Shown here: piece after piece, positions 19,978 through 60,500 of the stretch
How the letters are laid out: each line of letters starts with the position of its first letter
How positions within the stretch are numbered: position 1 is the first letter of the stretch
Notes under the pieces: generated by a model
What the model saw: the letters and a program-made list of their open reading frames with translations, nothing else
What the model was told of the DNA's origin: nothing
Database searches by the model: none
NCBI RefSeq assembly: GCF_041381155.1
Contig: NC_091134.1
Coordinates: 30,261,540-30,325,539, forward strand
Source of the DNA: Argopecten irradians
Lineage: Eukaryota; Mollusca; Bivalvia; Pectinida; Pectinidae
DNA length: 64,000 nt
Direction: 5' to 3'
Program-made: the position numbers and the translations under genes

Positions 19978-25621
<5,644 letters not shown>

Positions 25622-31341: not shown

Positions 31342-34300
31342 TTATATCTGAAAATGAAATATAACGATACATTTAAATACAGAACTAATGCAAAAGAAAA
31401 TCTTTGAACACTTTTAGATATCAATTCTATATTTCGTTTGGTATTAAGAAGAAAACACTATTTCAAGAAACTGTTGACATCATGGAATATAATTAGTGAC
31501 GTCACAATGGCCAGTGTAGCTCCACCCACTGGTGGTCTAACTTTGGTGGTTATGCTTTGTATTACTGAACAATGGAATTTTTTTTATCAATGATCTCTTC
31601 TTTATTTTTCAATCGATCATTAAATGTTATAAACCAAAATGGAGATGGGATCATTTCCTTTCCAATCATGTCTTTCAGTTTCCGTTGACATTTCTGTGTT
31701 GATACGCCATAGTTATCAACTTACCTGTATTTTTCTAACTTCATGTCTCTACTAAACCCAAGTTAATTTACGGTAGACCACCAGTAAGCGTGGCCTCATT
31801 ATATAATCAATCTATTGTTCTGACCAGTGTGGGGTCAGCTTAAATACAGTAACTACTCTTGTATCTGCCTCACTTATCAAGAATGAAATCATATCATAAT
31901 TAGATAAGATAGTAGGGATAAATACTATATTTGGGAAACCAAAATTTAATAACTCTTTCAGTTGTTTTGAAATCTTAAATTACTCACATCATCAATATCA
32001 TCATCATCTCCATCAAAGTTATTCTGGAACTCAATTTCATCTTGATTATCTTCATCAAAGAGGTTGTCGTTGAGTTTTGCTGCAAAGGAAAATGAAAATA
32101 TAAACACTCAACAAAGTCTTTGATAAATAAAACTAAGGCAACAACATCTAAACTATTTTTACCTACAGAAACGTTAAACAATCCTGGTGGAAACTTGCTA
32201 CAATATGTATACCTACTGGTTAGAGAAATCACTTATTACTCTGATTAATTAAAAGTTTTAACATTAATCCTGTGTTCTATTTACACATGCAGATAATAGA
32301 TATCATACCAGATTCTGGAAGTTCTCCATAGGCCTTCAGATTCCTGGCTTCGTCTGGTGTGTATTTTAGGATAACATCTGCCTTGTTGTCTTGGTAATCC
32401 CTAAGTCCCAGTAATATGATGTCTCCAGCATTGATCCAAACCTAAAATGGCACATTGTCAGCAAGGATATTCCAATCACAAATGGCAGCAAATTATTTGA
32501 TTATGTAGGATATATTCATTGCTAGATAATGCATCAAAATCTAGTGCAAAAATATTACTATCTTTATGATGGAGTTAAAATAAAATGCCATTTAAAATTC
32601 CAAATAGAAGTGCAACTCTAAATTGCTTAATTACAATAGCCATTTTATTATATACAGTCAGGACTTCACATTTACTACTGCCAAACTGCCCAGGGCAGGT
32701 CAGACCTCCAGTCAGGCAAGTCAGATATATCTGTGACTTGCCTGACTGGCCATGAGTGGGTGGAGATTTTAAGGGACATGATGTCATTGATACTTGTTTA
32801 GGTTGAAGTAGAGTTGATATCGTAGTCAAGATAAAATTGCAACAGAATCTGGACTATCCACATATTTCCTGAGGAGTTGTAAGATGTAAGATCAGGAGTT
32901 AGCTGCTCAAGCTGACTGGACAGTACCATACGTAGGAACAATTTATTCTGTTGCGAAAATCGCTATGTTATTTAAATTTACTACCGAGACTGTGTATCAT
33001 TACATATTATTATTAGATATAAAAGGGGCAGTTAAAGGTAGCCAACGAGCTGTAGATATACTGTATAGGGTCTACAGTATACACATATTAATATGATTTA
33101 ATCATTCGACAAATTTTGGCATGTCAGGTTTATATATAGCACGACAAGGCAAGTCCTTAAACAAGAGATCCCAGAGGGATCTTGGCACCCACCAAAGAAT
33201 TATCTGTATGACAAACAAAAGAGGAATCCTTTTTCTGCTTTTCTAACTTTTACTACATATGAAATTTGAGAAAGATCCTTTGAGTACTTTCTGAGATATA
33301 TAACAGTAACAAACTTCAATTATCAAAATCCAAGATGGCTACCTGAAGTCCATCTTTTTGACCGATCAGTCCAATAAATGCAATAAGCACAACTAAGGTC
33401 CTAGGGAAACTTCCATATAAAATTTGAGACAGATCCCTTCAGTACTTTCTGAGAAATAGTGGTAACATGCTTCAACTATCAAAATCCAAGATGGTTTCCT
33501 GTCCGCCATCTTGTTCACCGATCGGTCCGAAAATGCATTATGCACAACTAGACCCTAGGGGAACCTGCACATGCAATTTTACACAGACCCCTTCAGCATT
33601 TCTGAGAAATAGCGGTTACAAACTTCAATTGTCAAAATCCAAGATGGCTTCCTGTCGGCTATCTTGTTCACTGATCGATACCAAAATGCAATATGCATAA
33701 CCAGGGACCTAGGGGACCATGCAAATGAAATTTGAGAATGATCCCTTCAGTTCTTTTGAGAAATAGCGGTAACAAACTTCAATTCTCAAAATCCAAGATG
33801 GCAGCCTGTCGGTCATCATGTTGATCGATCGGTCCCAAAATGCAATATGCACAACTAGGGCCCTAGGGGAACCTATATGTGAAATTTGAGAAAGATCTCT
33901 TCAGCACCTTTTTAGAAATAATGTTACAAACTTTAACTATCAAAATCCAAGATGGCGACTGTCTTGTTCACCGATTGGTCCCAATATGCAATATGCACAA
34001 CAAGACCCCTTGGGGAACCCACATGTGAAATTTGAGAAAGATCCCTTCAGTACTTTCTGAGAAATAGCGGTAACAAACTTTAACTAATAAAATCCAAGAT
34101 GGCGTCCTGTCCGCCATCTTGTTCACCGATCGGTCCGAAAATGCATTATGCACAACTAGACCCTAGGGGAACTTGCACATGCAATTTTACACAGACCCCT
34201 TCAGCATTTCTGAGAAATAGCGGTTACAAACTTCAATTGTCAAAATCCAAGATGGCTTCCTGTCGGCTATCTTGTTCACTGATCGATACCAAAATGCAAT

Positions 34301-37300
34301 ATGCATAACCAGGGACCTAGGGGACCATGCAAATGAAATTTGAGAATGATCCCTTCAGTTCTTTTGAGAAATAGCGGTAACAAACTTCAATTCTCAAAAT
34401 CCAAGATGGCAGCCTGTCGGTCATCATGTTGATCGATCGGTCCCAAAATGCAATATGCACAACTAGGGCCCTAGGGGAACCTATATGTGAAATTTGAGAA
34501 AGATCTCTTCAGCACCTTTTTAGAAATAATGTTACAAACTTTAACTATCAAAATCCAAGATGGCGACTGTCTTGTTCACCGATTGGTCCCAATATGCAAT
34601 ATGCACAACAAGACCCCTTGGGGAACCCACATGTGAAATTTGAGAGAGATCCCTTCAGTACTTTCTGAGAAATAGCGGTAACAAACTTTAACTAATAAAA
34701 TCCAAGATGACTGCCTGGCGGCCATTTTGTTGACCAATTATTGGTCCCAAAATGCAATATGCACAACTAGGGCCCTTGGGGAACCTACATATGAAATTTG
34801 AGAAAGATCCCTTCAGTTCTTTCTGAGAAATAGCGGTAACAAGCATTGTTAACAGACGGACGGAAGGACGGACTACGGACGAAAAACGATTTGAATAGAC
34901 CACCATCTGATGATGGTGGGCTAAAAAGTTAATGTCGAGCCCTGTATAGATTTTTTTTGTCACTTAAAATTTTATGTTTTTATGTAATATATTAAAAATA
35001 GTTGTGTTTGTATTGTATAATACTTTCTTAATTAATAGTGAGTAACTCAAAAGTACCTTTTTCCTAAGCTTTCCTCGGATGTGACATAACCTCTTCACGC
35101 CATCAAAGCAGAGTGCCTCCAATCGTCCATTTCCCAACATCTTTGTAACTTGTGCATATTCTGCAATACAGAGCTTCTCTAGATATATATGAATCAAAAT
35201 ATGTTATAAGCAGAATCAAAGAAGTCTAATTTTCACTTTCATACATTTCATCTATCAAATCTGAACTAGGTTTGAGCATCACATTGATGCTGTTATTCTG
35301 GAGAAAATGTTGAGATAACTACTGGTACAGACATCAGGTTTATTTTAGTGATTTCACTGACATTTTCATTAGGCCTAGGTCATTAAATTCATCATGAACT
35401 TTACTTTACTTTAGAGGTAAACATGACCAGACACTTTTAAAACATTACCTCATGTGTCCTCATACACATGTAGAGTACATCAACTATTGCTATACATTGT
35501 GTATTATTATTTTCACTAAAATCTATAAACTGATGTTTAACATCAACTTGCTGATCCGATAGGAATTACAACACCACTTTGAACATACATGTATAAAATA
35601 CATTGATATCATCCTCTCACCTTGTCCATCTTCTCTAAATACAAGCTCTCTCTTTTCGTTTTCATTCTCATTTTTACCCCTCCTCCTGTTTTTACCTCCC
35701 TTTCCTGTGAGAAAGACAAACATTTAGTTTTGTTAACTGCTCAACGATACAAAAACAATTTTTGTGGATTTTGGAGACAAGATTGATAGATTGATAACAT
35801 TTTGTTGATGAAAATTGGAACATGGCAAGAATGATTATTTTCGGTGAAAATTTGATCATTTAACATCTATATGTGGTTACCATGGCCAGTGATTTATGAT
35901 AGTAGGTAAAATATTGATTTTGCATGCAACATATACCAATGCTATGTCACCTTTCTTTAAACTTAAAGATGCTCCACCGCTGACAAATGGTATTTTTTCA
36001 CAATCAAAAACAGGAGCAGACGATTTAGGATTTTTCTTCAGTTACAAAAGTTACTAACTTTACACCATTACCACCATTGAAAAGTTTGAGCTTCAAAATT
36101 TACTATAAGTTAAAAATATGAAAAATAATTAATTGCATCCCGAAAAAATTCCGTAGCACTATACCCTATATAGAATGAAGTAATGATTGCGCATGCACCA
36201 AAGGCGAAATAAATTATTTGATGTTATTTTTTGTGTTAATTAGGCACATATACACGATTAAACACCAATTATTGATCAAATAATAAATATCATTCATGCT
36301 CTGTCGGCGGTGGAGCATCTTTAACAAAAGGAAGAAAATAAATAAAACTGATGCCAATGTATTTAATATTATCAAAACATGATGAATATATCAACAAATG
36401 CAACAAATTGAAGTACACTAAAATATTCCATTTTGTAATCAACAGGTGCTCAAGAGAATTTCCACCTGTCAACCTGCAGACCGTCGCTTGCATACAGTAA
36501 TCCAAAAAGCATATGACGCAATTGGTAAAAATACATTGATTAATAAACAATCAAGTTTTTTCGACTGATTAATCTATTTGCTTTTTATGATTGTAATAGA
36601 GATGCTTTTTCTTATTTGAATTTCAATTACTTTTCGCATATTTTTGAAGTACAACAGAGGTTTTTTTTCATTATCGTCTGTTTTAATTCAAAATCATACA
36701 TCTAGTATGAAACTAATCATCGTTGCAATTGGGAAAATATAAAAATAACAGTTGCAAAGAATTCAAAGTGCTTATGGCAACAAGTTATGATGATTTTCAA
36801 AAGTATGCAGAAATATGTGCTATATGACCAATCATATGTAGACTAGTGACCATGAGCATTGGTAGGCTGAGTGAAGAAATTTGCTGTCGGTCTGACAACA
36901 GGACTCCCGGTGTTTAACATATGTTGGGGAAAACCAATAACTTAATGTGTAATTATATATGCAAACTAGAGTATTATACCTCCCAACTGGAGTTTGAATT
37001 TGCTACTAAAAATTAATAAAATTAACTTTTATTTTCACAAATCGCATTTATTTAACTATGAAATATAACACAAATGCAAAAATTAGATTATGTCGGAAAG
37101 AGTTGAATATAGATGCAACAATCTGTTACTTTAAGAACTAGTCTGATGCCCATGACTAGTAATTATACGACCACACTGTATAACTGTAATAAACTAGTCC
37201 AATTGGACTAGTGCCTCCCCGTCCCATTAAAATTGATTAATGCCATATTTACAAGAGCGGAGGTCAATTCCATTTTTCAACACACTTGTATATAGTATAT

Positions 37301-38137: not shown

Positions 38138-41100
38138 TGCTCAACCTTCTTGTCAACCTCGAATGTGTAAAGAGAAGTCGTTCACTCTTTATTTACGAAA
38201 TTAATGCAACAAAGTGCGTCTTTCCTTTCAACATGTGAATGTATCCACCACCGGAAGTATGTTGTAGATGGCTTATGGGAAATCCACGTTGATTACAAGC
38301 TTTATACTTCCTTATGTATCAAGCGTTTTGTTGATTTAGATATTATGCAATACATATTTTTTTATTAACTCGGTAAAACCTAAATGCTATGTGAAGCAAC
38401 ATAAATACTTATCCTTGACATACGTTAAAATTTTTAAAAGGTCCCAAGGGCCTTAAATTAAAGTTGTAAATCAGTAGAAGTGTATGACAGGGGTTCTTTC
38501 TTAAAAAAAAACAAAAAAAAAACACGGTATCCTTAATATTCACTTAATGAGTCAACTTTTTGGTGCACTCAAACAGTGGGTAAATCACCATTGCTTATAA
38601 ACGGGATGGCTGCAATTTACGAGGCATTTTTAGAACATTGTTTAGAATGATAATTTAAATTTATCTTGAAACATTATATCATTAAAAAGTCATTTCGACA
38701 TTCACAAAGAGAAAAACAGACAGTAAACAACAGCATTATTACGCGAAACTTTTTTTTTTTTTTTTACATAATCGGGGGTTATTTTATATTCTACCGGGGC
38801 AGTATAACAATTAACATATTCATATTAATGGAATCAAAGGTCTCTTATTTAATTGTATAAGATAATAATTTTCTCTGAAAATTGCCAATATGATTACTTG
38901 AAGTGCTTGTTACTTACAAGAAAAATGATGGCTATTAGACACTACCATGATGAACTCAGTGTTTGGATAGTGGTATTTAAAAGTCCAATATCGATATGCG
39001 ACTATGTCACACAACACTAGCTAATATTAAATTGATGTTTCTAAAAAAGGAAAATCTGAGTTTATATATATGCATGCTATACATCGACCTTCGCGTGACC
39101 ATGGGTGTGGTGGAAATTTTTGTCTTCTATAGATGATTACTAACAATTTTAACAGTTTCCAGCAATAAAATTTCATATGCAATTATGCTTACGTTTAAAT
39201 AATATGATTGTACATCAATGAATTTGTTATAAAGTATATATAATCATGGGACTTATTTTAGCAACAGTATATCTTATAAATTGTGTGTATAATGATAGAA
39301 TTTATTCTAAAATGAACATGGAAAATTATGTGGATGCGTGTGAATACGGGAGTATATGGTAGCTACGCACCTGAAAGTTATTAAAGACAAATCAACACTA
39401 AAGCGGTATCTAAAGCGATTGAAATTAAGATGGAAACAGTTTTCAGACTTAAACAATGGTTCAACTTTTATTTTGAGTGACCTTCGTCATTCCGGACAAC
39501 GCCATGGGTTAAGAAGACAGAGTTCTTGCTCGTCCATATTAAATGTGGTTTCCGGAATGAAAATATGGCTTCCGAGAGCTCAAACAATGCAATATATAAA
39601 AAAATTCGCGTAATAACGCCAAAGTTTCGCAAAATTAAGCGATTTTTTTTTCTTCTTCCGAAATAGCCCTATCGGCTTTCGTAGAGAATATATTACTCTA
39701 GCACTCAAAACATCTTTATATTGTAACTGGAACTTTACATGTATTTGCTACTTTTTGTAATGTTATTTATACGCTTGAGAAAATAATAAACTTTGTTGTG
39801 ATAAATATGTTTTTGATACCGTTTTGGATCAAGAACGGAACCCTGCAACACATCTTATAAATCATGTTTTGAAAATTAACATGCGTACCACCAAATTCAA
39901 TGACTAATAGTGATCAAAACGACTAGACCCACATAATATTATTATGTAGATGACGAACAATAAGATTGCTCAAAAACTCGCAAGACAACACTTACTTTAC
40001 ATATTGGGTATCGTACCGAATACCATTGGCTAGCGAAGTTGGGACGTACAATGTAAGTAGCTTCTAGAATTTAGAATTACAGGGACCTGAGAATGGGTTA
40101 TATTTGGATATAACCTTAGTGTCTATCAGTTATTCTTGGACGTACTTATGTTTATATAGATTAGACATCGGAAAAACAATATGTTTTACATGCATGACTA
40201 ATCTTCGAGTTCAACGATGTATATTAATGTTTAAGACTACCTAATTGGTTGCAAATCTTTCATTTAAACCAATAAAACACCTCGAATATTAGAAATTTTA
40301 TATAGATACGTTTTTATTTGCAATAATGATGTTTACAATTGTTTTAATATTACATGTAAAGCAACATGAGTTGATATAGACAGAAGATGATTACAGTTTC
40401 ACATGAATGCCTTTCATCGATAACGTTCCAGCGGTTGTTTTCTCATCTTTTTACAGAATTCTGGACTGTCATTGTTGTGTCATCTGGAAGAAAATCTGGA
40501 AGAGAATGAAAAGCTAACCACACGTCAAAGTAATGGTTTCAGAGAGTCATAATAATTCCATTGGGTGACCAGAACATTATCGTCTTGTATGATTTTATTT
40601 TTCCTCTTTAATTTCATAAAACTAAAATCTTATCTTCATGGTTATTTGTGGCTTACGTAGTACTTGGAAAACGAAAACATTAGCAGGCGATTTTAATAAG
40701 ATTGTTAAGATAAAGAGGCACATAATTGTATATATTTTAGCAGTTCGACTATAGTGGCCTGATTGAAGAAATCTACAATGAGTAACCGAATACTGTTCCC
40801 AATCATTTTCTTAAAGTTTCAGTCAAATCCTTACTTTAATAAGTTTTAAATAGCGCCAAAGTCTTAGTGTTTAGTAATAGTCGGTACTATGAAAGCAGCC
40901 AAGAGTCTTTACTAGTAAAAGTCCCCAGCATTTGTTAGCCTTGACTTAGAGTCATTATGCCACCAGGATTTTTGTTGGCTTAAATATAACTCTATCAGCC
41001 CATACATGAAAATCAATGTTTCTGATAGGATTCATGTTTTAATGTATATCATAATTACCAAAGTTCTTTGATTGAAATAGATGTATTATAATTGTATCAT

Positions 41101-42468
41101 AATTGATCAATGGGTATAAATATTGATTGTTCTTTATCCTAAATAAGCAGAAATTAAGCTAAGTATATAAAGAACTATAATTACTCATTTTGGAGAATTT
41201 ATAGGTGCGAATGGATTATTCGCTTAATATCTTATTGTATTCTTGTTCGAAGAACTATTCTCTCATAGAATTACAAGATATTCCATATATTAAGCATAGT
41301 GTGTAACTTTTCATTGGTTCATGATCAGTTTGATCATTTTCTCTTCTAAATGTAAATTAAGTCTTCAGTTACCAAATTTAGATTTTTTACACATTTTGTT
41401 TACAGATCATTTTAAATTAGTTAATAGCCAATTATTGTATAGTTTGGTATATCTAATATTAAATTTTAACAATTTATGGTGCTAATGATGTTAATATTCT
41501 CATTTGAGTTTGTAAATGATGAAATAAAATACATTAAGCTACATAAATTGAAGATATATTTATAAATAAGAAGTTTCCTTTATTAGTGTAATTAAAGCTG
41601 AATTCCAGTATAGATATATTTTATAACTTATCGATAAAGGTCAAAGTTTATAGATTACACTTTAAGATACTAAATTACTTTATTATTCTAATTATTTCCA
41701 CCATTATTATTGTTTCTATTATCATTAATTACTCTCTCATTACCCCTCTCATTGTCAAGTGAGTTCTACCATATAATTTATTGTTCTGCTAATTGTCCCC
41801 CCAAAATATTAAAGTAAATTATCAAGTGTTCAGTGTGTAGTAAACCTTTTATTGTAAATTGTACTGCCTGTTATTTCTTGGATGTGCTGTAAACTTATAA
41901 GTGTAACTTTAATATTTAAATTTTATTGTATGTGCATTTGAATTGTCACTCTTGACCAAGACCAATAAAGAGGAAACATCTAAAGAAACAGCTCTCTTTA
42001 TCATATTTACAGAACGACAAAACCCGATGAAACACCCCACAAACCCAACCCCTAAAAAATGACGTTGCATTTTGAAACGTCGCTAATGATTTTCTGATAC
42101 GAAAGAGTTGCTTAATAAAACTGAAATTTCGAAAGATCTTATGTTACTGGGGTATAACACAAAATTCCAAACGCATCTTAATTATAAACTGCTTCTCGTT
42201 TTATTTGGAGTACACTCTGGGTTTTGTGTTATATCTCCATAAGACATAGTATATTTAAATCTACATTAAGTTAATCCTTCAATAAAATTGACCCCAAATA
42301 CCAGAAACGTTACTACGGCATCATATCAAGAAGTTCAAGATGGATTTTTTCTTTACGTGTACTTGAGGATGGACATGCAAAAAATGTAAAAGATGAGACA
42401 AAAGCGCTGTTAAAAAACCCAGAAAAGTATTGTATTTTTATTAAATATTTATGAAACATTAGAAGTAC
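38138..42468. other. Spacer between the two eIF1A loci
   Basis: Just upstream of the eIF1A ATG on the minus strand is a pyrimidine stretch (CTTCTCTTT) that could be a TOP-like start. The rest is A+T-rich. A short CPQ-like segment is at 40440-40483. Sequence ending 'GACCAAGACCAATAAAGAG' near 41970 looks like a plus-strand transcript or retroelement 3' end. No coding gene was recognised. Confidence 0.35.
40440..40483 (-). pseudogene. Possible relic of the CPQ last exon
   Basis: On the minus strand, after CTTCCAG, the sequence ATGACACAACAATGACAGTC and then CAGAATTC resembles the start of the CPQ last exon at 54698 (GTGACACAATGACAGTCCAG): a shared 15-mer plus flanking similarity and one 3-base insertion. 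A stop follows after about 14 codons. The match is short and could be chance. Confidence 0.25.
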
Positions 42469-42521
42469 CTTTGACTAATTCCATTGATATTCTATCGTCC
42501 TCCAGGTACAAGTATCCTGTA

Positions 42522-44292
42522 TCATCTGTTTGATGTTTGTATTTGACACCTGCCTTGAGCTTGAGAACGTCCTGGGGTGACGAAGGCATTGCAGCTGGCA
42601 TTAACGAACACCTAAAACATTACAGTAAAGATCATTTTTCTCCCGCAGACACATGTTTCTAGGAGCCCGATGTAGACCACCATTGAGAAATCCACATGTT
42701 ACCTCGATACCATTCTATAGCGTACGGAGGATTTGTAGTCATTTGTTAAAGGAAGTGTATCGCCATTTACTTCTAATTTTTATATACTAATATCGCGGAT
42801 TTGCTTACAAAGCGTTGTATCGTTCAAAAGTTAAAATTACTCACACCTTCATCGTCTTTAAGGACCCCACTACACTGAATCTTACAATCGATTTCACTTT
42901 GATGGTCATCCAACCTTTCGCCAAGTTTTCTATGAGAGATATCTGAAAACATGTCAGTTGTTTTTTATGAAGGCAAGAGTGTAATTGATTATAGATGATC
43001 AATTAACGTAATCTAGAGTTAAAGTTTGATTTACATTGTATAAATAATGATAGAGAACAATAGAGAATAGAACCGAGTGTTCAGTATGAGCATGTACTAC
43101 GTGTTCTAGCTCTGATCATCGACATTACCCGCCATGCAAATCTAGGTCGAATATGAAGTAACCATTTAAATTTGGTAATGACAATACATGTAATTAAAAT
43201 ATTTTATTAAAAACAATAATGAAGTTAGTGCAAAAAGGAAAATAACCAGTTTTGAATTAGAAATTTGAACTTTTCACTTGTCATGCTTGTCCCCGAAATA
43301 GACCTTATGTAGTGAGGTAGTAATCATCCTACAATGTATGAACGCATAAACTTACATGACATTGGTATAGGTATATATATTTTCGTGGGGATGTAAATTC
43401 GTTGATTTTGGTCAAAAAACGAAATCCACGAAAATTAAACACCCACGAAAATTAATGATTTCACAGTAAGCCTGTTTTGTACGGGTTACCATACGAGAGG
43501 AACCATACATACCCGTTACTTGAGCAGGTTCTCTATAAACCATTTGATGGCGTTCTTCCTCTGGTACGCATTTTTCTCCGAATTTTGTCCTTGTATCATG
43601 GTCATCTTTTCTTCCTGTGTTTCCATTTTCCCACATCTAGAATAACAAAACAGACACAAAAACATGATTGTTATTTATTCTTTGAAATAATACAATTTGA
43701 CATCCAGTGTTAAAACATTACCCAAACGAACGAACCAATATTTATTATCATTATTGCATATCGTGCATGCATAGACTGATTATACAAGGCTTTTAAAATC
43801 CTATATATAAAACCGATTACCATCAAGCATTTGAAATGACCATGTGTATCATGCAGCTGCTGTACGATCGTATATGGTTGTTCAAATTAAGTTTTCAAAT
43901 TACTCACAAACACACTGTCTTCAACGTCCACATTGTTCTGAACATCGCCATCAATTTTGCATTGATTATCACCCAGTCTTTTTCCTAGCTTTCCTGGAAA
44001 GTTAGCCAAATCATGTCATTTAGTGTTTCATATAAACCACATAAGACTATGTAAATGCTACTGTTGGTAAGTGGTATGCATCATAAAACTATAACTGCTT
44101 ACATTTTGCATATAGAAGACACACGAGAAAGTTCTGATTTTGTTTTCGAAACATAAAGTAATCACCAATCCTAGCCGATTGTTGGTGTTCCCAATGGCCT
44201 TTCAGGTATTTTCCCGCGTCTGGTATCTCCTCGCCTGCTGGTCTAGTGTCCTTGACATCCTTTGGTCTGTCGCTCTTCTGTGGTTCCCACAT
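42522..44292 (-). CDS. Diverged duplicate exons 4/5 of eIF1A (possible C-terminal extension of copy 2)
   Basis: Five exon-like blocks on the minus strand: A 44292-44166, B 43993-43908, C 43636-43513, D 42942-42845, E 42611-42469. A and C have phases 0 in/1 out like eIF1A exon 4 and resemble its end (IPDAGKYLKGHWE and VPEEERHQMVYREP against [14 protein letters not shown]). B and D have phases 1 in/0 out like exon 5 (KLGKRLGDNQCKID, QNNVD against KLNDN, QNNFD), and both donors read GTGAGTAATTT, as in eIF1A copy 1. Exon 5 of copy 2 ends in phase 0, so A-E can splice onto it and would give about 317 aa, ending inside E. Lengths differ from the parents by -6, -6, -9 and +6 nt; E differs by +10. 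Transcription is unproven; decayed partial duplicates are the alternative. Confidence 0.55.
43379..43452. repeat. Small inverted repeat (ATTTTCGTGGG)
   Basis: ATTTTCGTGGG at 43379-43389 is inverted at 43442-43452 (CCCACGAAAAT). It resembles the ends of short palindromic MITEs with 'CACGAAAATTAA' motifs. It lies in the spacer after block C of the eIF1A-derived exons. Confidence 0.45.
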
Positions 44293-44410
44293 CTAGATAA
44301 CAAAACATCAGAGGCATTACTACCAACACCATCGGGATAAGATATGAACCCAGAGACGAAGATCAGAAGTTCAATCTATCTCTTTTACTGAGCTACAAGA
44401 ATAAGCTCAG

Positions 44411-44560
44411 CCGAATTCTCGAGGGAATATACACACAAGTCGAGTTCTCTAGGGAATATACACGCAAGTCGAGTACTCGAGGGAATATACACGCAAGTCG
44501 AGTTCTCGAGGGAATACACACGCAAGTCGAATTCTCGAGGGAATATACACGCAAGTCGAG
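44411..44560. repeat. 29-bp minisatellite with CTCGAG
   Basis: Five units at an exact 29-bp spacing (GGGAATA at 44423, 44452, 44481, 44510, 44539). The unit core is CTCGAGGGAATATACACGCA plus AGTCGAGTT. Each unit carries its own small inverted pair (CTCGA / TCGAG). Confidence 0.9.
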
Positions 44561-44940
44561 AACTATCCTTGTCTTATGTTTCGCCTATAGGCCTACCGAA
44601 AGTATATATTTATGTACCATGTTAATTGGAGGAAGTAGAAAAGGGAATCAATTGGTTCGACTTTTTTTGCCTGGAGGATCTGCACATTATGCAATGAAGA
44701 AAAGATTTGAGGCAATCGTTTTCATTTAAACCATCTCACATAAGCTATGATGGCCAGGACAGTTTGATTGATAGGTTTCAGAATTAAGCAACAATTGGGA
44801 GGAGATGGAGAAATTTGTTTGGTAAAATAAGTTTGAACTCGATGACATTTTGTTTAGAATAAGACGTTTACTAAAGTATATAAGTTCAATGAGACGATCG
44901 AGAGGTATTTTTATAACAATGTCGTAGTTCACACATATTT

Positions 44941-45053
44941 ATCACAGGGAGTTGGCACAAATTTCCAACCAACGGTTAATATATTTATATATATGTTTTA
45001 TGCTATATATAATACATGTAGATAATGACCGTTGGTTGGAAAGTCCCTGTGAT
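44941..45053. repeat. 113-bp foldback just after eIF1A copy 2 exon 5
   Basis: Outer arms ATCACAGGGA (44941-44950) and TCCCTGTGAT (45044-45053); inner arms TTTCCAACCAACGGT and ACCGTTGGTTGGAAA; an A+T loop. It starts two bases beyond the read-through stop of eIF1A copy 2 (45055-45057). It may be a MITE or a 3'-end RNA hairpin. Confidence 0.75.
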
Positions 45054-45054
45054 A

Positions 45055-48000
45055 TTAATAGCCTATCACCAGGTCAAGATCAGCATCACTCACGGCATCA
45101 TTATAGTCAGCGTCGTCGTCATAGTTGTTATGGAACTCTATTTCTTCATTGTTATCCTCATCAAAGAGGTTGTCGCTGAGTTTTGCTGGAAAATCATATA
45201 AATAGAAAAGTAATATGCACTTCTAGTGGAATTTTCTATTAAAGATGCTCCACCCCCGACAGAGCATAAATGATATTCATCATTTGAACAATAATTGGTG
45301 TTAATCGTGTATAAATATGTCTAGATAGCACAAAAATAATATAAAATAATTCATTTTGCCTTTGGTGCATGCATAATCAGTGCTTCATTCCATATAGGAT
45401 ATAGTGCCACCCAATTTTTTCGGGATGCAATTAATTATTTTTAATATTTTTTAACTTGAAGTAAAATTAGAAGCTCAAACTTTTCAAAGGTGGTAATGGT
45501 GTAAAGTAAGTAACTTTTGTAACTGAAGAAAAATCCTAAAATCTTCTGCTTCTGTTTTTGATAGTGAAAAAAATACCATTTGTCAGCAGTGGAGCATCTT
45601 TAAGATTTAAACGGACAAATATGAGATGTAGATTTATTAATGAAATCCTATAACTAGTAATTCATACAACAACTCATCCATTGTGGAGAGTGATACTTAT
45701 TGATAGAAATTAAAGCTATAGACATGTTATAGGGTTATCAATTTCAGTCCTAGTGTGTATCAATGGTGTGTACAATTTTGAATCCCCACCCTATAAGAAT
45801 GTTTCCATTGCATTATGAGTGCTATCCCATGCTTAGTTTAAGAGAAGAAGTCGTTTAAATGGAAATAGCCAAATTGACCCCTTTTGGCTCCGCCCCTCAG
45901 GCCCCTGGGGGGTCAGCCCCATCATTTGTACAATTTTCAGTAAGTAGCCCATAAGGATGCCACAGTCAAATTTTGTTAAAATTCGACCAGCGGTTATGGA
46001 GAAGAAGTCGATTGTTGACGGACGGACGACGGACGGACGACGGACGCCGGACGCCACGGTATGGCATAAGCTCACCTTGGTCCTTCAGACCAGGTGAGCT
46101 AAAAATTAATGAGGATATTGATCTAGCATTAAACATATACAAAGATGTATATTAATTATATTGTTTATGTATACGATAAAAATATACGATCTTTAACGAT
46201 ACGGAAAAATAAAAATATGCGTTTGAATGTGTGCATTTTATTTTGATGAAAGCCTTACACAAAAAAGATATGCTAATGATTTGATATTCTTCTGAGATGT
46301 ACGAATAATACCAGTTTCAGGAAGCTCTCCATATGCCTTCAGATTCCTAGCCTCGTCTGGTGTGTATTTTTGTATAACGTCCGCCTTCATATCTTGAAAC
46401 TCCCTTAACCCAAGTAGAATGATGTCGCCAGTATTTATCCAAACCTAAACAAATGATGAGCTAAATTTTGTTGTTGAAGGAGGAAGGCCAGTTGTACTTT
46501 CAGTTTTCATCACCCACCATGGGGACTCGCTTGCAGATTATTAACGATATTATGTATATTTAAAAAAAAAATAACAAAACCCCCTCAAAATATATGTCGC
46601 AATGGTTAACATTAAAACAAGTTGCACACTATGGTTTTCAAATAACAGTCGTAAATTCATTTTTATGTGAGTTGACTGTATATCCTCCATACCTTTTTCC
46701 TTAGCTTTCCACGAATATGACACATCCTCTTCACTCCATCAAAGCACAGAGCTTCCAATCGTCCATTTCCCAACATCCGTGTAACCTGTGCGTATTCTGT
46801 ATCAAACATTGTAGATGTTTATGAGTAAGTTTATTACATTTTTAAATTGGTTAGTTACATAGTATTACGCTGTTATCAATTTCAATCTCAAACCTGCTGA
46901 TACACATCGCTACCGAAAATGGAACACTCTTAAAATATATGATACAGAATTTTCAGTTTATAATCTAAACTAACAATAACTGTCATGAACAAAACAATTA
47001 GGTGCTGAATATTAACTGTGTAAATTTTCGGGTCCTTTAAAAAACAAATCCAGGAAACGAAATCCTGTTACAACCGTAAAACATCATATATTCAAAAACG
47101 AAAAATATTGCTTAATGGAATATTTGTGGCAGATAAGTGAAAAAAGAACTTTCCTTAAATTTTCATCATGACATTTTAAAAGCAAATCTTAATAAGGAGG
47201 TGTTCCAATTTGGATACTCGAATCTGCTGAAACACCATGGTTGGACCGGTTATGCTTCAAAGCTCTGTATTTATAAATATATGCGCTGCTGACAAGAAAA
47301 CAAATCATGAAATTTAAATGACGGCGTTTATTTGTGAAATGTTGAATTCAAGCATTCGGTTGAATTTTTTTTTATATAATTATATTCAAAAAGTGTTCCA
47401 ATTTGGGTAGCGTCACGTTTTAGGTTGTAACCACACAAATTTTCCAACAAACCGAGCATACGGTGAGACTTCATTGGTTACACGTGAAAAAAACAAGAAC
47501 TTAACAAATTTTTATAATACTCTATTGCCATTTGGTGATTATTACAATGCATGTAATAAATTCATTTTAGGATTGGAAATCTCTACTAGTTAATTGGCTG
47601 TAATCAGGGAGTGTCATTTGATACCGCTAATAAACTGTTAAATCCTGTCTCTATAAAGTACATTTATATTGCATCGGTAGGCCTGAATTTGTATCGATAG
47701 GACTTTCAAGCTTTTAAAACGTCGTTAATTATACTACACGTAAATGGTATAGTTTTATATAGGATATGAAGTGTAATGATATAATTTTGAGTCAATAGCT
47801 ATATACAATGTGCTTTACGTTTGTTATAAAATATATTGTTTGTCTGCCAATATACGAAAGATTACTTTTCTTACACAGAATCTGAAAAGCCTGAATGGTT
47901 ATAAGCATGTACTTGTTCCGAAAACAGCAAAAACAGCAGACCTTTATTCAAAATGTCAGAATGTTGACAGTCTACCTTGATTGGTGTAATTCAAATACAG

Positions 48001-48508
48001 CTACACGCAGAACAAAGTCTAAAATAAAAGCTTGATGTGAAAACAAACATAATCGATACGTTTTACCCTCGACGTTAAAGTGATAGATTAGGAACCTTTT
48101 AGAATGTTTACTACCTTGTCCATGCTCTCTAAATACCAGTTCTCTCTTTTCATTTTCATTCTCATTTTTACCCCTCCTCCTGTTTTTACCTCCCTTTCCT
48201 GTAAAAGAATACAATGATTTACGTTATTAGTTTCTAGATAGTTATTCCTCCAATAATCATTGTTAAATTACTGAACACGTATTGCTATTTTTGTATACTA
48301 GTATAGCCCAATACCATTAACCATTTCAATACAAATTCGCAAAATTGATTGGCATTTTTTTCAATTTTAGTGATGATTATTGTGATTAGCGGAAATAAGC
48401 ATTCGCAAATTTACTTGGCTGGGGATATTACTGAAAGTACATCGCACGCGACATGAATTTGATTTTACAGTACATTATTTGTATATCAATACCTTTGTTT
48501 TTCGGCAT
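45055..48508 (-). CDS. EIF1A: Eukaryotic translation initiation factor 1A (copy 2)
   Basis: Exons 48508-48493, 48198-48115, 46796-46693, 46444-46312 and 45185-45094 have the same lengths (16, 84, 104, 133, 92) and phases as copy 1. The protein keeps [15 protein letters not shown], the OB fold ([30 protein letters not shown]) and [13 protein letters not shown]. It differs by HGQ for DGQ, REFQDM for RDYQDN and IQKY for ILKY. The acidic tail has diverged ([17 protein letters not shown]) and no DIDDI end was found. After the 92-nt exon the frame either reads through GTGAGT to [12 protein letters not shown] and stop (155 aa, the span given here) or splices to the exon-4/5-like blocks downstream. 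Intact frame and conserved core suggest function, possibly tissue-specific. Intron 4 holds a MITE and a tandem-core relic. Confidence 0.9.
45239..45603. repeat. TTAA MITE, copy in eIF1A copy 2 intron 4
   Basis: 'TTAAAGATGCTCCACCCCCG' to 'CAGCAGTGGAGCATCTTTAA', same length class (365 bp) as 35963 but in the opposite orientation. Confidence 0.85.
45771..46105. repeat. Truncated copy of the AGCTCACCTGG tandem-core element
   Basis: About two core units ('GCCAAATTGACCCC', 'GGGGGTCAGCCCCATCATTTG') followed by 'GGACGGACGACGGACGCCGG' and the end hairpin 'AGCTCACCTTGG' / 'CCAGGTGAGCT'. It is inverted relative to 22314-23683. Confidence 0.8.
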
Positions 48509-49382
48509 GGCTCGACCTTTTTAACAACCAGTGTGAAAAGTAATCTTCTATTGTAAGCTCAAACAATGTCTCGTATTTATATTCATTTGCTGCTCACATA
48601 CATGCACCAATGCCCGGAAGTCGCCGATGGGAAATCGATATTCATGACAAACTTCCTTGTTGTTCATCAAAAGTACTGATACACATACAGTCAATAAGAC
48701 TTAAAAAATATTCTGATACGTGAACAGAAAATAACATAAAATATCATAGATAAGTCAAACTTTGTTCCGAAATATTTTAACTCGAGAAATGTCTATGTAA
48801 GATATTATTCCTGACCAAATACATGTAGAATATTATCAAACAAAATGTTAAGAAATATGCTTTGGTGGAAACGACAATATTCATGACCCAATTTTTACCC
48901 GTAACCCAACTCATGCGACTCTAGGATGTAATCATCTTAAGCAGATCCACATGCAATGCTAACATCAATATCAAATGGTTGAAAGTATTTTGATCTAGGT
49001 AGACATGAGATAAAGATCCCAAATTTAGTCGCCTTTACAATAATAGAGTGGGACATTAGGTCATTAAGTACAATTCTAACATTTTGACATCTTCAGTATA
49101 GGTGTTGCTTAGAATTCTCTCATAAAAAGAAATAAAAAAAAAATAAAAAAATGAAATCATCTGAAGCAGACCGTGACAAAATCCACAGGCAATACTCAAC
49201 CTCAATCTCAAGTTATCAAATCGTGGTAAAATTAAGGTTTCTGCAAAGTTTTCATGCTAAAATAGAACATATGCTTAACTACTGTGACATACTACTTTTT
49301 CGCCTGTTATCTGAACTGAAATATAGATTTGTAGGCGAAAACCGAGAAAAATATCATTACTACTCTAATATCTAATTACAAC

Positions 49383-49746
49383 TTAAAGATGCTCCACCGC
49401 TGACAAATGGTATTTTTTCACTATCAAAAATAGGAGCAGACGATTTAGTATTTTTCTTGAGCTACAGAAGTTACTTACTTTACACCATTACTACCATTGA
49501 AAAGGTTTAGCTTCTAATTTTACTTCAAGTTAAAAATATGAAAAATAATTAATTGCATCCCGAAAAAATTCCGTGGCACTATATCTTATATGGAATGAAG
49601 TAATGATTGTGCATGCACCAAAGGCAAAAGAAATTATTTTATGTTATTTTTTGCGTTAATTAGGCATATATATTCACGATTAAACACCAATTATTGTTCA
49701 AATGATGAATATCATTTATGCTCTGTCGGCGGTGGAGTATCTTTAA
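49383..49746. repeat. TTAA MITE, fifth copy
   Basis: 'TTAAAGATGCTCCACCGCTG' to 'GGCGGTGGAGTATCTTTAA', 364 bp, same orientation as 35963 and very similar to it. Confidence 0.85.
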
Positions 49747-49835
49747 AATGAAAACCTAAATGTTCATCCTTTGGCCCTTCATATTACCATGGGCCCAGCA
49801 AAATATTTGATGTTCTGAATTGTTTTCGATTGCAG

Positions 49836-54591: not shown

Positions 54592-57500
54592 TTACCGCGG
54601 TAACATGTCCTCCATATCAGCTACTGTAAAAGCCACAACCGCCCACACAGCAGCACACAGGTTCATCTTTTCTGGATCCTGGACTGTCATTGTGTCACCT
54701 GAAATAAAATCAAGACTGTGTTATGTAACATCTTACTATTTTGATATTAATATAGGTTGGTAACAAGAAGCTGTCGCTATGTTACTTCGACATCAAATAC
54801 AGATGTTAGGTTGGTAACAAGAAGCTGTCCCTATGTTACTGTGACATCAAATACAGATATTAGGTTGGTAACAAACAGTTGTCGCTATGTTACTGTGCCA
54901 TCAAACATTGATGTTAGGTTGGTAACAAGAAGCTGTTGCTATGTTACTTCGACATCAAATACAGATGTTAGGTTGGTAACAAGAAGCTGTCCCTATGTTA
55001 CTGTGACATCAAACACTGATGTTATGTTGGTAACAAGAATCTGTCGCTATGTTACTGTGACATCAAACACTGATATTAGGTTGGTAACAAGAAGCTGTCC
55101 CTATGTTACTGTGACATCAAACGCAGATATTAGGTTGGTAACAAGAGGCTGTCGCCATGTTACTGTAACATCAAACACAGATATTAGGTTGGTAACAAGA
55201 AGCTGTCCCTATGTTACTGTGACATCAAATACAGATATTAGGTTGGTAACAAACAGTTGTCGCTATGTTACTGTGACATCAAACATTGATGTTAGGTTGG
55301 TAACAAGAAGCTGTTGCTATGTTACTTCGACATCAAATACAGATGTTAGGTTGGTAACAAGAAGCTGTCCCTATGTTACTGTGACATCAAACACTGATGT
55401 TAGATTGGTAACAAGAAGCTGTCGCTATGTTACTGTGACATCAAACACAGATATAATGTGCGTAACAAGAATCTGTCGCTATGTTACTGTGACATCAAAC
55501 ACTGATATTAGGTTGGTAACAAGAAGCTGTCACTATGTTACTGTGACATCAAATACAGATATTAGGTTGGTAACAAACAGCTGTCGCTATGTTACTGTAA
55601 CATCAAACATTGATATTAGGTTGGTAACAAGAAGCTGTCGCTATGTTACTGTGACATCAAAAACAGATGTTAGGTTGGTAACAAGAATCTGTCCCTATGT
55701 TACTGTGACATCAAACGCAGATATTAGGTTGGTAACAAGAGGCTGTCGCCATGTTACTGTAACATCAAACACAGATATTAGGTTGGTAACAAGAAGCTGT
55801 CCCTTTGGTACTGTGACATCAAACACAGATATTAGGTTGGTAACAAGAAGTTGGCTCTATGTTACTGTGACATCAAAAACAGATGTTAGGTCGGTAACAA
55901 GAAGCTGTCCCTTTGGTACTGTGACATCAAACACAGATATTAGGTTGGTAACAAACAGTTGTCGCTATGTTACTTCGACATCAAACACAGATATTATGTT
56001 GGTAACAAGAAGCTGGCTCTATGTTACTGTGACATCAAAAACAGATGTGAGGTCGGTAACAAGAAGCTGGCTCTATGATACTGTGACATCAAACACAGAT
56101 GTTAGCTTGGTAACAAGAAGCTGGCTCTATGATACTGTGACATCAAACACAGATATTAGGTTGGTAACAAGAAGCTGTCGCTATGTTACTGTGACATCAA
56201 ACACAGATATAATGTGCGTAACAAGAATCTGTCGCTATGTTACTGTGACATCAAACACTGATATTAGGTTGGTAACAAGAAGCTGTCACTATGTTACTGT
56301 GACATCAAACGCAGATATTAGGTTGGTAACAAGAGGCTGTCGCCATGTTACTGTAACATCAAACACTGATATTAGGTTGGTAACAAGAAGCTGTCACTAT
56401 GTTACTGTGACATCAAAAACAGATGTTAGGTTGGTAACAAGAATCTGTCCCTATGTTACTGTGACATCAAACGCAGATATTAGGTTGGTAACAAGAGGCT
56501 GTCGCCATGTTACTGTAACATCAAACACAGATATTAGGTTGGTAACAAGAAGCTGTCCCTATGTTACTGTGACATCAAACACAGATATTAGGTTGGTAAC
56601 AAGAAGCTGTCCCTATGTTACTGTGACATCAAACACAGATATTAGGTTGGTAACAAGAAGCTGGCTCTATGTTACTGTGACATCAAAAACAGATGTTAGG
56701 TCGGTAACAAGAAGCTGTCCCTTTGGTACTGTGACATCAAACACAGATATTAGGTTGGTAACAAACAGTTGTCGCTATGTTACTTCGACATCAAACACAG
56801 ATATTATGTTGGTAACAAGAAGCTGGCTCTATGTTACTGTGACATCAAAAACAGATGTGAGGTCGGTAACAAGAAGCTGGCTCTATGATACTGTGACATC
56901 AAACACAGATGTTATGTTGGTAACAAGAAGCTGGCTCTATGTTATGATACTGTGACATCAAACACAGATGTTAGCTTGGTAACAAGAAGCTGGCTCTATG
57001 ATACTGTGACATCAAACACAGATATTAGGTTGGTAACAAGAAGCTGTCGCTATGTTACTGTGACATCAAACACAGATATTAGGTTGGTAACATGAAGCTG
57101 TCGCTATGTTACTGTGACACCAAAAACAGATGTTAGGTTGGTAACAAGAATCTGTCGCTATGTTACTGTGACATCAAACACAGATATTAGGTTGGTAACA
57201 AGAAGCTGTCACTATGTTACTGTGACATCAAACACAGATATTAGGTTGGTAACAAGAAGCTGTCGCTATGTTACTGTGACATCAAACACAGATATTAGGT
57301 TGGTAACAAGAAGCTGTCACTATGTTACTGTGACATCAAACACAGATATTAGGTTGGTAACAAGAAGCTGTCGCTATGTTACTGTGACATCAAACACAGA
57401 TATTAGGTTGGTAACAAGAAGCTGTCACTATGTTACTGTGACATCAAACCCAGATTTACACACTTTACATTCCTACCAATATTGATCTCAATTGCAAAGT

Positions 57501-60500
57501 TGAAACTGCAGAAGAAGTTTGCAATGTGTTTTTCGAAAATAGTGGTTGTGTTTGCCGCATTTCGGACCAACCCCAAAAAGGATCATTCTAAGCAATATTC
57601 CGCTCAATGCCACTAGAGGAATTTAAAAATAAGTTTAAAATGAAAAAGTTTATGGACAGCAGATGACACAATGCACACAATGACAAATGAAGCACAACCA
57701 CAGCCTTTGGGTTATATGACCTAAAACTGTCATGTCCTTGACATGCATTAGTGTACCATACACTGAGCTACCTACATATACAATGGTGCCCTGGTTTGTT
57801 CTTGGAATACCTACCGTTGGTATGGTGGTAGTAGAAGTAAGTGGACTCATCGTTATATAGACTAGAGCCAGGCACGCCTTGTGACATCCACATAGCTATG
57901 TCTGTACCATCAGCCCCTTTTATCAGTTTACTAGCGTTTATTGGTCGTAATAAATCTACGACAGACTCCATGATTTCTGTAGCTTTTTCATTGCCTGTAA
58001 TAACAAATATTTATAACCCACATAGTACATGTACATGATATAATGTGACACCTACAAATTCCCTACCGGATATTTTTAATTAAAATTTTTCATAAAATTT
58101 TTTCATAAAAATAACCAATATCACTGAAATAAGATTATATCTACACTCGGAATCTAGAATCAGAAGCCTCTATTATGTTACAATGGCAACGGGGGTTTTC
58201 CAAAATGATACAGTTGTCTTTTGCAAAATCTATTCTTCAAACTTAATAAAAAACATAGCATAATTTTGACTAGGTATTTCAGAATAGATGTTGCTCTATT
58301 GAAAAAAATATGCACTTGTGCATCTAAGCACCCACTCAACACCCATGTTAGGTGCCAATGAAGCCTGACACATAGATACAGATCGTAACCAAATAAGTCC
58401 CTCACTTCATTTAGAGCCATAATAAGATAAATGCTTTTAAATGAATCATATAGTGAAAACAATCAAAGAAAAGTGCTCGAGTAAAATTTTTGCTAGAATA
58501 CTTAAAATATATTTTTTCAAGGTTCATTAACAACTAACAAGGTTACAAATAAATCACCAATCATCAAAATTGTGCTTTACCGCAAACAAAAATGTAACAT
58601 TCCATATACATATTTGTGGACTACCTATGAATCTCCAATAAAATGTGAAGCACGTAAATAGAAAAACAGCATTCATCTTAAAGAGATTTCACTTTGTATT
58701 GTGCATGGTATTGATGTCTAAAGGCCTTTTTGATAAAGCGATAATTATGTGTCCATAAGTTCCTTTGTGTTGAAGAGACCTTATAAACGGAAATTTTAAT
58801 ACTTACCAGTGAATTGTATTCCATATGGATGGAAGGTTCCTATATCTGACTCCATCACCATATCAAATTTACTGACGTCGTCCTGGAAACACAAATTACA
58901 TGGCTGATAAACTGTGGTACTTACACAAATTATCTTCCTAACCAAATTCTTTTCCCATTAGGATAGCACTCAATAAATTTTTTCTTAAATTATTAAAGAA
59001 TTAGATGTTGTATTCGATTTCTCTTTACCTTATGAGCTTGGTAGTATGCTTCAGCTCCAATTCCTCCCATTTCCTGAAAGTACAAAGTAGGTTCTCCGTT
59101 ATTGTCCTTTGGAAACACCAGTATTATTCAACAGTGTCTCAGTTAATAGTCAATATAAGTAGATTGTACGATATTGACTCTATAATGGATGTCCTAAGAC
59201 AAAAGTACTGTACCCTTGTCTTAGGACATTCATTATAGAGTCAATATGTGTAAATTGTACCCTTGTCTTAGGACATCCATTATAGAGTCAATATGTGTAA
59301 ACTGTAACCTGGTCTTAGGACGACATCCATTATAGAGTCAATATGTATAAACTGTACCCTTGTCTTAGGACGACATCCATTATAGAGTCAATATGTGTAA
59401 ACTGTACCCTTGTCTTAGGACGACATCCATTATAGAGTCAATATGTGTAAACTGTACCCTTGTCTTAGGACGACATCCATTATAGAGTCAATATGTGTAA
59501 ATTGTACCCTTGTCTTAGGACATTCATTATAGAGTCAATATGTGTAAATTGTACCCTTCTCTCAGGGCATCCATTATAGAGTCGATATGTGTAAACTGTA
59601 CCCTTGTCTTAGGACGACATCCATTATAGAGTCAATATGTGTAAACTGTACCCTTGTCTTAGGACGACATCCATTATAGAGTCAATATGTGTAAATTGTA
59701 CCCTTGTCTTAGGACATCAGTTATAGAGTCAATATGTGTAAATTCTACCCTTGTCTTAGGACATTAATTATTGAGTCAATATGTGTATATTGTACTCTTG
59801 TCTTAGGACATCCATTATAGAGTCAATTTGTGTAAACAATACCTTTGTCTTAGGACATCCATTATAGAGTCAATATGTGTAAATTGTACTCTTGTCTTAG
59901 GACATCCATTATAGAGTCAATATGTGTAAATTGTACCTTTGTCTTAGGACATCCATTATAGAGTCAATATGTGTAAACTGTACCCTTGTCTTAGGACGAC
60001 ATCCATTATAGAGTCAATATGTGTAAATTGTACCCTTGTCTTAGGACATTCATTATAGAGTCAATATGTGTAAATTGTACCCTTGTCTTAGGACATCCAT
60101 TATAGAGTCAATATGTGTAAACTGTACCCTTCTCTCAGGGCATCCATTATAGAGTCAATATGTGTAAATTGTACCCTTGTCTTAGGACATCCATTATAGA
60201 GTCAATATGTTTAAACTGTACCCTTGTCTTAGGACATCCATTATAGAGTCAATTTGTGTAAACAATACCCTTGTCTTAGGACATCCATTATAGAGTCAAT
60301 ATGTGTAAACTGTACCCTTGTTATAGAGCATCATTATAGATCAATGTTTAAACTGTACCCTTGTCTTAGGACATCCATTATAGAGTCAATTTGTGTAAAC
60401 TGTACCCTTGTCTTAGGACATCCATTATAGAGTCAATATGTGTAAACTGTACCCTTGTCTTAGGACGACATCCATTATAGAGTCAATTTGTGTAAACTGT

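Follow-up and report, generated by a model that had tools for sequence, protein, structure and literature searches.

An eIF1A copy of the bivalve Argopecten irradians is followed by exon-like blocks that apparently stem from its own exon 4-5 pair, a candidate modular tail

Results

Two eIF1A copies in the window

The window analysed here is a 64,000-nucleotide stretch of the Argopecten irradians genome (NC_091134.1, forward-strand positions 30,261,540 to 30,325,539), and its features of interest are collected in Table 1. It carries two copies of eIF1A. In copy 2 the PF01176 OB-fold domain spans residues 32-93 (E 6.6e-22; score 77.4 bits, cut-off 30.2), residues 1-142 align with residues 1-143 of human EIF1AX (144 aa), and the basic N-terminal tail is present, residues 1-20 being identical to those of human eIF1A. 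Both copies have in common a 53-nt block around the ATG of exon 1 (E 1.3e-8); a weak extra match to copy 1 lies upstream of the start block of copy 2 (E 0.012), and a TATAAA occurs at 48581, near exon 1. Exon 4 of copy 2 is 81% identical to that of copy 1. Over the core, the two differ by a dN of 0.071 and a dS of 0.81 (dN/dS about 0.09), and purifying selection on the copy 2 core is thereby supported. A genome search with PF01176 found three places: the two eIF1A copies and one third locus, which we take to be EIF1AD. The copy 1 protein ends in ...DDDDIDD followed by I, an acidic end that presumably represents the eIF5B motif.

Table 1. Features of the two eIF1A copies and of the region downstream of copy 2 (window coordinates).
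Feature	Position	Strand	Details
eIF1A copy 2 exon 1	48493..48508	-	ATG CCG AAA AAC AAA G
eIF1A copy 2 exon 2	48115..48198	-
eIF1A copy 2 exon 3 (OB fold)	46693..46796	-
eIF1A copy 2 exon 4	46312..46444	-	133 nt, phase 0 to 1
eIF1A copy 2 exon 5	45094..45185	-	92 nt, phase 1 to 0, donor GTGAGT
Exon 5 donor read-through, copy 2	45055..45093	-	12 codons in frame, then TAA (45057-45055)
Block A, putatively exon-4-derived	44166..44292	-	127 nt, phase 0 to 1
Block B, putatively exon-5-derived	43908..43993	-	86 nt, phase 1 to 0, donor GTGAGTAATTT
Block C, putatively exon-4-derived	43513..43636	-	124 nt, phase 0 to 1
Dispersed repeat (MITE-like), about 201 bp	43268..43468	.	intron between C and D
Block D, putatively exon-5-derived	42845..42942	-	98 nt, phase 1 to 0, donor GTGAGTAATTT
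Block E, possible exon-4 derivative	42469..42611	-	143 nt, out of frame with exon 4
eIF1A copy 1 exons 4 and 5	31988..32441	-	exon 4, 32441-32309; exon 5, 32079-31988
eIF1A copy 1 exon 6, coding part	31342..31347	-	ATATAA (I, stop)

Splice signals and phases of the downstream blocks

Beginning 801 nt past exon 5 of copy 2, five blocks (A to E) are each preceded by AG and followed by GT, all on the minus strand. A sequence-only reading of this DNA had assigned lengths, phases and donors to A-D and an ATG-TGG-GAA start common to A and C, and all of these were verified on the sequence. The lengths depart from 133 and 92 nt by multiples of three, as had been claimed (A by -6, B by -6, C by -9 and D by +6); A and C both start ATGTGGGAA, with the ATG directly at the acceptor, and the donor sequence of B and D also follows copy 1 exon 5. 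No stop codons occur in A-D in the frames of that reading. The A-B, C-D and exon 4-5 pairs all run from phase 0 to phase 0, and the intron phases are compatible. The donors scored 3.8 (A), 4.9 (B), 8.1 (C) and 6.5 (D), within a range of 1.1-10.7 for the eIF1A donors scored; for the complete set of 272 GTs in 40000-45000 the 90th percentile is 4.1, which the A donor does not reach. The exon 4 donor position aligns with CT in A, whose modelled donor follows 9 nt later and in phase; the modelled D acceptor is about 12 nt upstream of the site aligned with the exon 5 acceptor. The repeat between C and D has at least 39 other copies at 93-98% identity, a lower bound obtained with 40 of 309 candidates scored.

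Homology of A-D to exons 4 and 5

The origin of A-D is clearer from DNA profiles than from protein comparison. A profile of A and C found exon 4 of copy 1 (E 5.8e-7) and of copy 2 (E 9.4e-4), and a profile of B and D found exon 5 of copy 1 (E 5.7e-5) and, only at E 0.18, that of copy 2; the profile rows were taken from joint alignments, which is a mild bias. Searches from the source exons to the blocks were much weaker: the exon 5 profile found D (E 0.0071) and B (E 0.018), while the exon 4 profile found C only at E 0.39 and A was absent from its matches, appearing at E 0.024 after C had joined the profile. In protein shuffles (2000 each; counts are given as global and local), C against exon 4 of either eIF1A copy was matched by 0 and 0, B against D by 0 and 1, and A against C by 4 and 21. 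The corresponding counts were 38-81 and 83-138 for A against exon 4, 3-12 and 60-391 for B against exon 5, and 23-343 and 66-319 for D against exon 5, so that as proteins A, B and D resemble their source exons weakly. A-D are neighbouring homologous exon-like blocks on the same strand, and to judge by these comparisons they derive from eIF1A exons 4 and 5. The earlier proposal that one exon 4/5 pair was duplicated repeatedly is supported by DNA-profile homology, order and phases. Another origin, in which A arose by read-through of an ancestral exon 6 (ATATAA to ATGTGG), was dropped once A and C matched exon 4; BLAST with the copy 1 exon 6 region (31500-30400) returned nothing at E up to 1 within 45100-40000.

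Reading frame, codon composition and amino-acid constraint

Frame-blind DNA alignments, with a gap opening of -20 for the cleanest set, kept A and C in phase at 112/112 bases (exon gaps of 6, 3, 6 and 3), C and copy 1 exon 4 at 121/121 (gaps of 3, 9 and 3), D and copy 1 exon 5 at 86/86 (one gap of 6) and B and D at 86/86 without any exon gap. One-base gaps were confined to the outside of exons in the A-C and C-exon 4 alignments. At the same setting, two comparisons were not clean: exon 4 with A (gaps of 2, 1, 12 and 6; 105/115 in phase) and exon 5 with B (gaps of 2, 4, 7, 1 and 6; 64/79). Weaker gap penalties lowered the A-C counts to 104/109, 97/107 and 79/110, and a gap opening of -15 gave 111/120 for C-exon 4 and 81/86 for D-exon 5. 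In a neutral simulation, full phase was seen in 1.0-1.75% of the pairs kept, and both exons of a pair were openable in 0-1.9% of runs. Codon log-odds per codon were 0.39 (A), 0.37 (B), 0.29 (C) and 0.28 (D), the best of the three frames in each block, with 0.28-0.55 for exons 4 and 5 of the two eIF1A copies; null segments scored as high in 2.6%, 3.2%, 7.2% and 8.2% of cases, respectively. Since the exon gaps in the cleanest alignments are multiples of three, such frame keeping is rare under neutrality and the codon composition favours the proposed frame, A-D have the look of coding exons that are real or were so until recently.

The coding constraint that had been claimed for these blocks is borne out in frame keeping, codon composition and splice signals, but not in amino-acid constraint, where omega did not reach significance. 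B against D gave an omega of 0.39-0.41 (2dlnL 2.9-3.7; not significant), comparison of copy 1 exon 5 with B and with D gave 0.49-0.90 (not significant), and constraint on C against exon 4 was likewise not significant; in the A-C fit, for which a protein-guided alignment was used, the branch length was unbounded. B and D have 11 identical residues, against a neutral mean of 9.6 (P 0.31). The extension by itself had no match in Pfam, and a weak endosulfine match for the joined protein (E 0.12; score 12.9 bits, cut-off 29.8) was set aside.

Possible ends of the copy 2 protein

Read-through of the exon 5 donor would give an alternative protein of 155 aa with an acidic tail ending in DLDLVIGY. Between 45100 and 43746, neither AATAAA nor ATTAAA, the two hexamers scanned, is present for a short transcript. 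In the long form exon 5 ends ...DYNDA and continues into A, the added tail having a pI of 5.7; this predicted form would lack an acidic C-terminal tail with an eIF5B-binding end and would be an eIF1A in its core only.

Joined to exons 1-5 and A-D, block E completes a spliced model of 317 aa to the first stop, the total given earlier, but E, on which this total rests, is not in frame with exon 4. E had been called exon-4-like. Its coordinates and AG/GT borders hold, but no likeness to exon 4 as protein was detected in a shuffle test and 54/116 bases are in phase in the alignment; as DNA, shuffles equalled it 1 and 3 times in 500, and nhmmer gave E 0.21-0.49. In the frame of the model E reads 29 codons and then TGA (42524-42522), and an AATAAA starts at 42442, past the block. 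E may supply a different tail end if translated in another frame, starting at an internal acceptor near 42571 (...KLKAGVKYKHQTDDTGYLYLEDDRISMELVK); the codon score is 0.23 for the alternative frame over the whole block and 0.32 for the internal-acceptor segment in the shifted frame. A candidate terminal exon further on (40495-40443, DFLPDDTTMTVQNSVKR, AATAAA at 40318) was rejected, as it scores below zero on codon composition (-0.33 per codon) and does not significantly resemble exon 5 or B (485/5000 shuffles at best).

Discussion

We favour, with modest confidence, the reading in which eIF1A copy 2 is a functioning tandem paralog, its exon 4-5 pair having been duplicated twice and the extra copies being spliced on as a long tail. 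The homology of the blocks, their order and phases, the kept frame and the kept splice signals are established at the level of the DNA. The 225-nt exon 4-5 pair would have been duplicated downstream of exon 5 and, since it is in phase 0 at both ends, a tandem copy would have been in frame from the start; the duplicate pair would then have been duplicated again, giving A-B and C-D. Spliced after exon 5, A-E would add about 174 hydrophilic residues, with the tail ending in E and a poly(A) signal after it. Binding to the 40S subunit is predicted to be kept through the intact OB fold. In place of the acidic C-terminal end there would be a longer tail that is only mildly acidic and makes different contacts; the read-through stop after exon 5 may yield a second isoform of ordinary length. 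That copy 2 is a lineage-specific paralog with a modular tail, having kept ribosome binding but, as the long form, no longer carrying the eIF5B handle, and that the exon 5 donor acts as a switch between 155 and 317 aa, is a tentative and less probable extension of this scheme.

A rather unlikely alternative is that copy 2 ends by the 155-aa read-through or by some other short end, A-E being what is left, in decay, of an older duplication of the exon pair that was coding during part of its history. In favour of this are the in-frame read-through stop with its acidic tail, the frame of E, the lack of significant amino-acid constraint, and the displacement of the A donor and D acceptor relative to the source exons. 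Set against this are four open blocks with correct phases and indels that are mostly multiples of three, the missing poly(A) hexamers for a short transcript, and the GTGAGT retained at the exon 5 donor. The ATG found right at the acceptor of A and C, together with the distance between exon 5 and A, could also indicate that A-E form a separate small gene for a protein derived from the eIF1A tail and lacking the OB fold; an upstream non-coding exon would come first, and translation would begin at the ATG of A. We consider this improbable: the splice acceptor at which A starts aligns with the exon 4 acceptor and calls for an upstream exon, which exon 5 of copy 2 offers in phase. Symmetric phases would equally suit alternative cassettes, A-B and C-D replacing exons 4-5 rather than lengthening the protein, but most residues of A and C are unlike those of exon 4 and the OB fold would presumably break, which makes this arrangement very improbable.

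eIF1A is universally conserved. Among vertebrates its tails are conserved in length and sequence, the C-terminal tail being less so between kingdoms, and its tail end binds eIF5B, which matters for subunit joining in yeast (PMC6122471). According to passages of the same study, some animals, namely nematodes and flatworms, have an eIF1A without the acidic eIF5B-binding end, a state that the long form of copy 2 would resemble, and Mollusca are said to retain the motif; unlike copy 2, the nematode and flatworm proteins are described in those passages with no mention of added exons (PMC6122471). Compared with the family as a whole (PF01176; human EIF1AX), copy 2 has four extra exon-like blocks that apparently come from its own exons 4-5, and in its long form the acidic, eIF5B-binding terminus would be missing. 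Chains of the eIF1A family longer than 144 aa do exist in the PDB (for example 4bts_A0, 211 aa, and 7ase_w, 166 aa). Of a 339-aa query, the 4bts chain covers residues 2-154, reaching only 11 residues past exon 5, and in this alignment there is no sign of a repeated exon 4-5 module in 4bts_A0.

Tandem exon duplication is a known phenomenon in eukaryotic genes, and A-D are like its products in being adjacent, homologous, on the same strand and of matching phases. Among the open-licence papers listed in our searches, we found no account of it for eIF1A. What sets copy 2 apart is that an exon pair seems to have been duplicated twice, apparently lengthening the protein end. If our favoured reading of copy 2 is true, its tail, reassembled from duplicated exons, would offer a natural experiment on eIF1A tail function, and the locus would illustrate clearly how a symmetric exon pair can lengthen a protein in frame.

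Results

The five exon-like blocks downstream of eIF1A copy 2 (A, C and E resembling exon 4, B and D resembling exon 5) have the places, lengths and splice signals assigned to them by the sequence-only reading, and joining them to copy 2 exons 1-5 gives a long form of 317 aa, as proposed (about 317). That the exon 4/5 pair was duplicated more than once, also proposed, is real according to block-exon alignments and profiles. In pairwise DNA comparisons, whose E-values hold for those short pairs, B matches D (66% over 136 columns, E 1.8e-14), D and B match copy 1 exon 5 (84 nt, 63%, E 1e-5; 74 nt, 62%, E 5e-4), and C and A match copy 1 exon 4 (128 columns reaching into the intron, 65%, E 2.6e-4; 57 nt, 65%, E 0.001). 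Against copy 2, C with exon 4 was the sole pair under the 0.05 cut (E 0.016); faster change of copy 2 alone may explain why the blocks are closer to copy 1. Across the whole window, an A+C DNA profile recovers copy 1 exon 4 (E 5.8e-7) and a B+D profile copy 1 exon 5 (E 5.7e-5). The reverse searches were weaker, the exons 5 profile finding D at E 0.0071 and B at 0.018, and the exons 4 profile finding C at 0.39 and block E at 0.49, with A not among its matches in the window. The exon 4-5 pair begins and ends in phase 0, and duplicating it in tandem therefore leaves the reading frame intact. Exon 4 lacks the start common to A and C, which suggests that the second copying probably began from the first copy.

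Searched against the genome, the A-E protein (with E in its alternative frame) found five places, the blocks themselves. DNA 42440-44320 gave 70 matches among 40 scored of 309 candidates: itself, 39 copies of a MITE-like repeat in the C-D intron at 93-98%, a further copy at 77% and 29 short fragments of that repeat. PF01176 had three matches among 11 scored candidates in the 845.8-Mb genome, namely copy 1, copy 2 and one on another contig that we identify by eye as EIF1AD. With the 155-aa copy 2 protein as query, eight places came up, each an exon of copy 1 or copy 2. Over exons 1-5 the copies differ by dN 0.071 and dS 0.81, from which we judge that they are old paralogs rather than haplotypes and that purifying selection has long acted on copy 2.

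Features of the eIF1A region and repeats in the window
Feature	Position	Strand	Remark
eIF1A copy 2	from 48508	minus	first of tandem pair, ahead of copy 1
Block A	44292-44166	minus	
Block B	43993-43908	minus	
Block C	43636-43513	minus	
Block D	42942-42845	minus	
Block E	42611-42469	minus	
eIF1A copy 1	from 38137	minus	second of tandem pair
Intron segment	45769-46106		part of copy 2 intron 4; matches 22308-22631 and 158-bp tandem array at 22463-23434
~380-bp repeat	45232-45610		copy 2 intron 4; more copies near 49376-49754, 35956-36324, 15233-15590
Inverted repeat, ~80 nt	44962-45042		just after read-through stop
29-bp tandem repeat, 5 copies	44412-44560		between copy 2 exon 5 and block A
MITE-like repeat	43268-43468		C-D intron; at least 39 other copies at 93-98% identity
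154-bp tandem repeat, ~10 copies	33253-34842		copy 1 intron between exons 3 and 4
54-bp tandem repeat, ~50 copies	54753-57455	plus	open across 732 codons on this strand
47-bp tandem repeat, ~48 copies	59207-61478		

The ORF of the 54-bp repeat exceeds the Pfam cut-offs for BfiI_DBD (50.6 vs 25 bits) and Crisp; no single stretch passes either alone, and both matches are taken for repeat artefacts.

In frame-blind alignments at a gap opening of -20, exon gaps were 6, 3, 6 and 3 in A-C, 3, 9 and 3 in C-exon 4 and 6 in D-exon 5, and the exon part of B-D had none. Just outside the exons, A-C and C-exon 4 carry one-base gaps, D-exon 5 a gap of 12 and B-D one of 6. Exon 4-A (105/115 in phase; gaps 2, 1, 12, 6) and exon 5-B (64/79; gaps 2, 4, 7, 1, 6) were less clean. 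The in-phase share of A-C varies with gap penalty: 112/112 at -20, 104/109 at -15, 97/107 at -12 and 79/110 at -10 with extension -2. Neutral pairs were simulated and retained when their length difference was divisible by three and they carried three or more gaps; of 400 such pairs per setting, 1.0-1.75% were in phase throughout. With splice sites free to shift by 0, 12 or 20 nt, 0-1.9% of simulations left both members of an exon pair openable (800 runs per setting), a figure that squaring would overstate because A-B and C-D have a partly common history. Codon composition favours the proposed frame in 4/4 blocks A-D, and their donors score 3.8-8.1, inside the range of scored eIF1A donors, A's being ordinary for any GT.

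Discussion

Blocks A-D are a multiply duplicated exon pair, real and with clear marks of coding history. The claimed coding constraint stands in part: frame and codon composition are kept, but amino-acid constraint is not significant. For B-D, identity at codon positions 1, 2 and 3 is 15, 20 and 17 of 28, and constraint was not significant (omega 0.41, 2dlnL 2.92; with other frequencies 0.39, 3.65), nor was it in C-exon 4, D-exon 5 or B-exon 5. Pooling A-C with B-D gives omega 0.20 and 2dlnL 14.4 in a protein-guided alignment that favours constraint; A-C alone gives a strong value, likewise favoured by that alignment, its branch length lacking finite convergence. DNA-guided identity in A-C (25/38, 24/37, 19/37 by codon position) is not striking. 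The frame of A-D is kept and the residues are fairly free.

The copy 2 exon 5 donor keeps GTGAGT, past which lie 12 more open codons and a TAA; read-through would yield a 155-aa, ordinary-looking eIF1A. Between 45100 and 43746 there is no AATAAA or ATTAAA, so a read-through transcript would have to use a different signal or an extended 3' end. The copy 1 protein ends in ...DDDDIDD, then I and a stop, and BLAST with its exon 6 region found no match in 45100-40000 at E up to 1. Block E is out of frame with exon 4 (54/116 in phase); in the proposed frame its TGA (42524-42522) lies about 80 nt ahead of an AATAAA at 42442, which fits a putative terminal exon. On one genome, we lean modestly towards A-D serving today as an eIF1A tail, the likeliest reading.

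Such a tail would follow an intact core, copy 2 residues 1-142 aligning with human eIF1A. PMC6122471 describes eIF1A tails as disordered, the extreme C-terminus as binding the eIF5B-CTD, and this site and a negatively charged tail as retained in Mollusca. The added 174 residues hold 27 K+R and 32 D+E (pI 5.7, GRAVY -1.17), and the long form might bind the ribosome without normal eIF5B recruitment. It would perhaps do so in a restricted tissue; TATAAA lies 73 nt upstream of the copy 2 ATG, a motif absent from the 164 nt scanned for copy 1. The PDB eIF1A chains 4bts_A0 (211 aa) and 7ase_w (166 aa) are likewise longer than usual, so that length alone is not unheard of for eIF1A; what is unusual in the long form is its origin from an exon pair.
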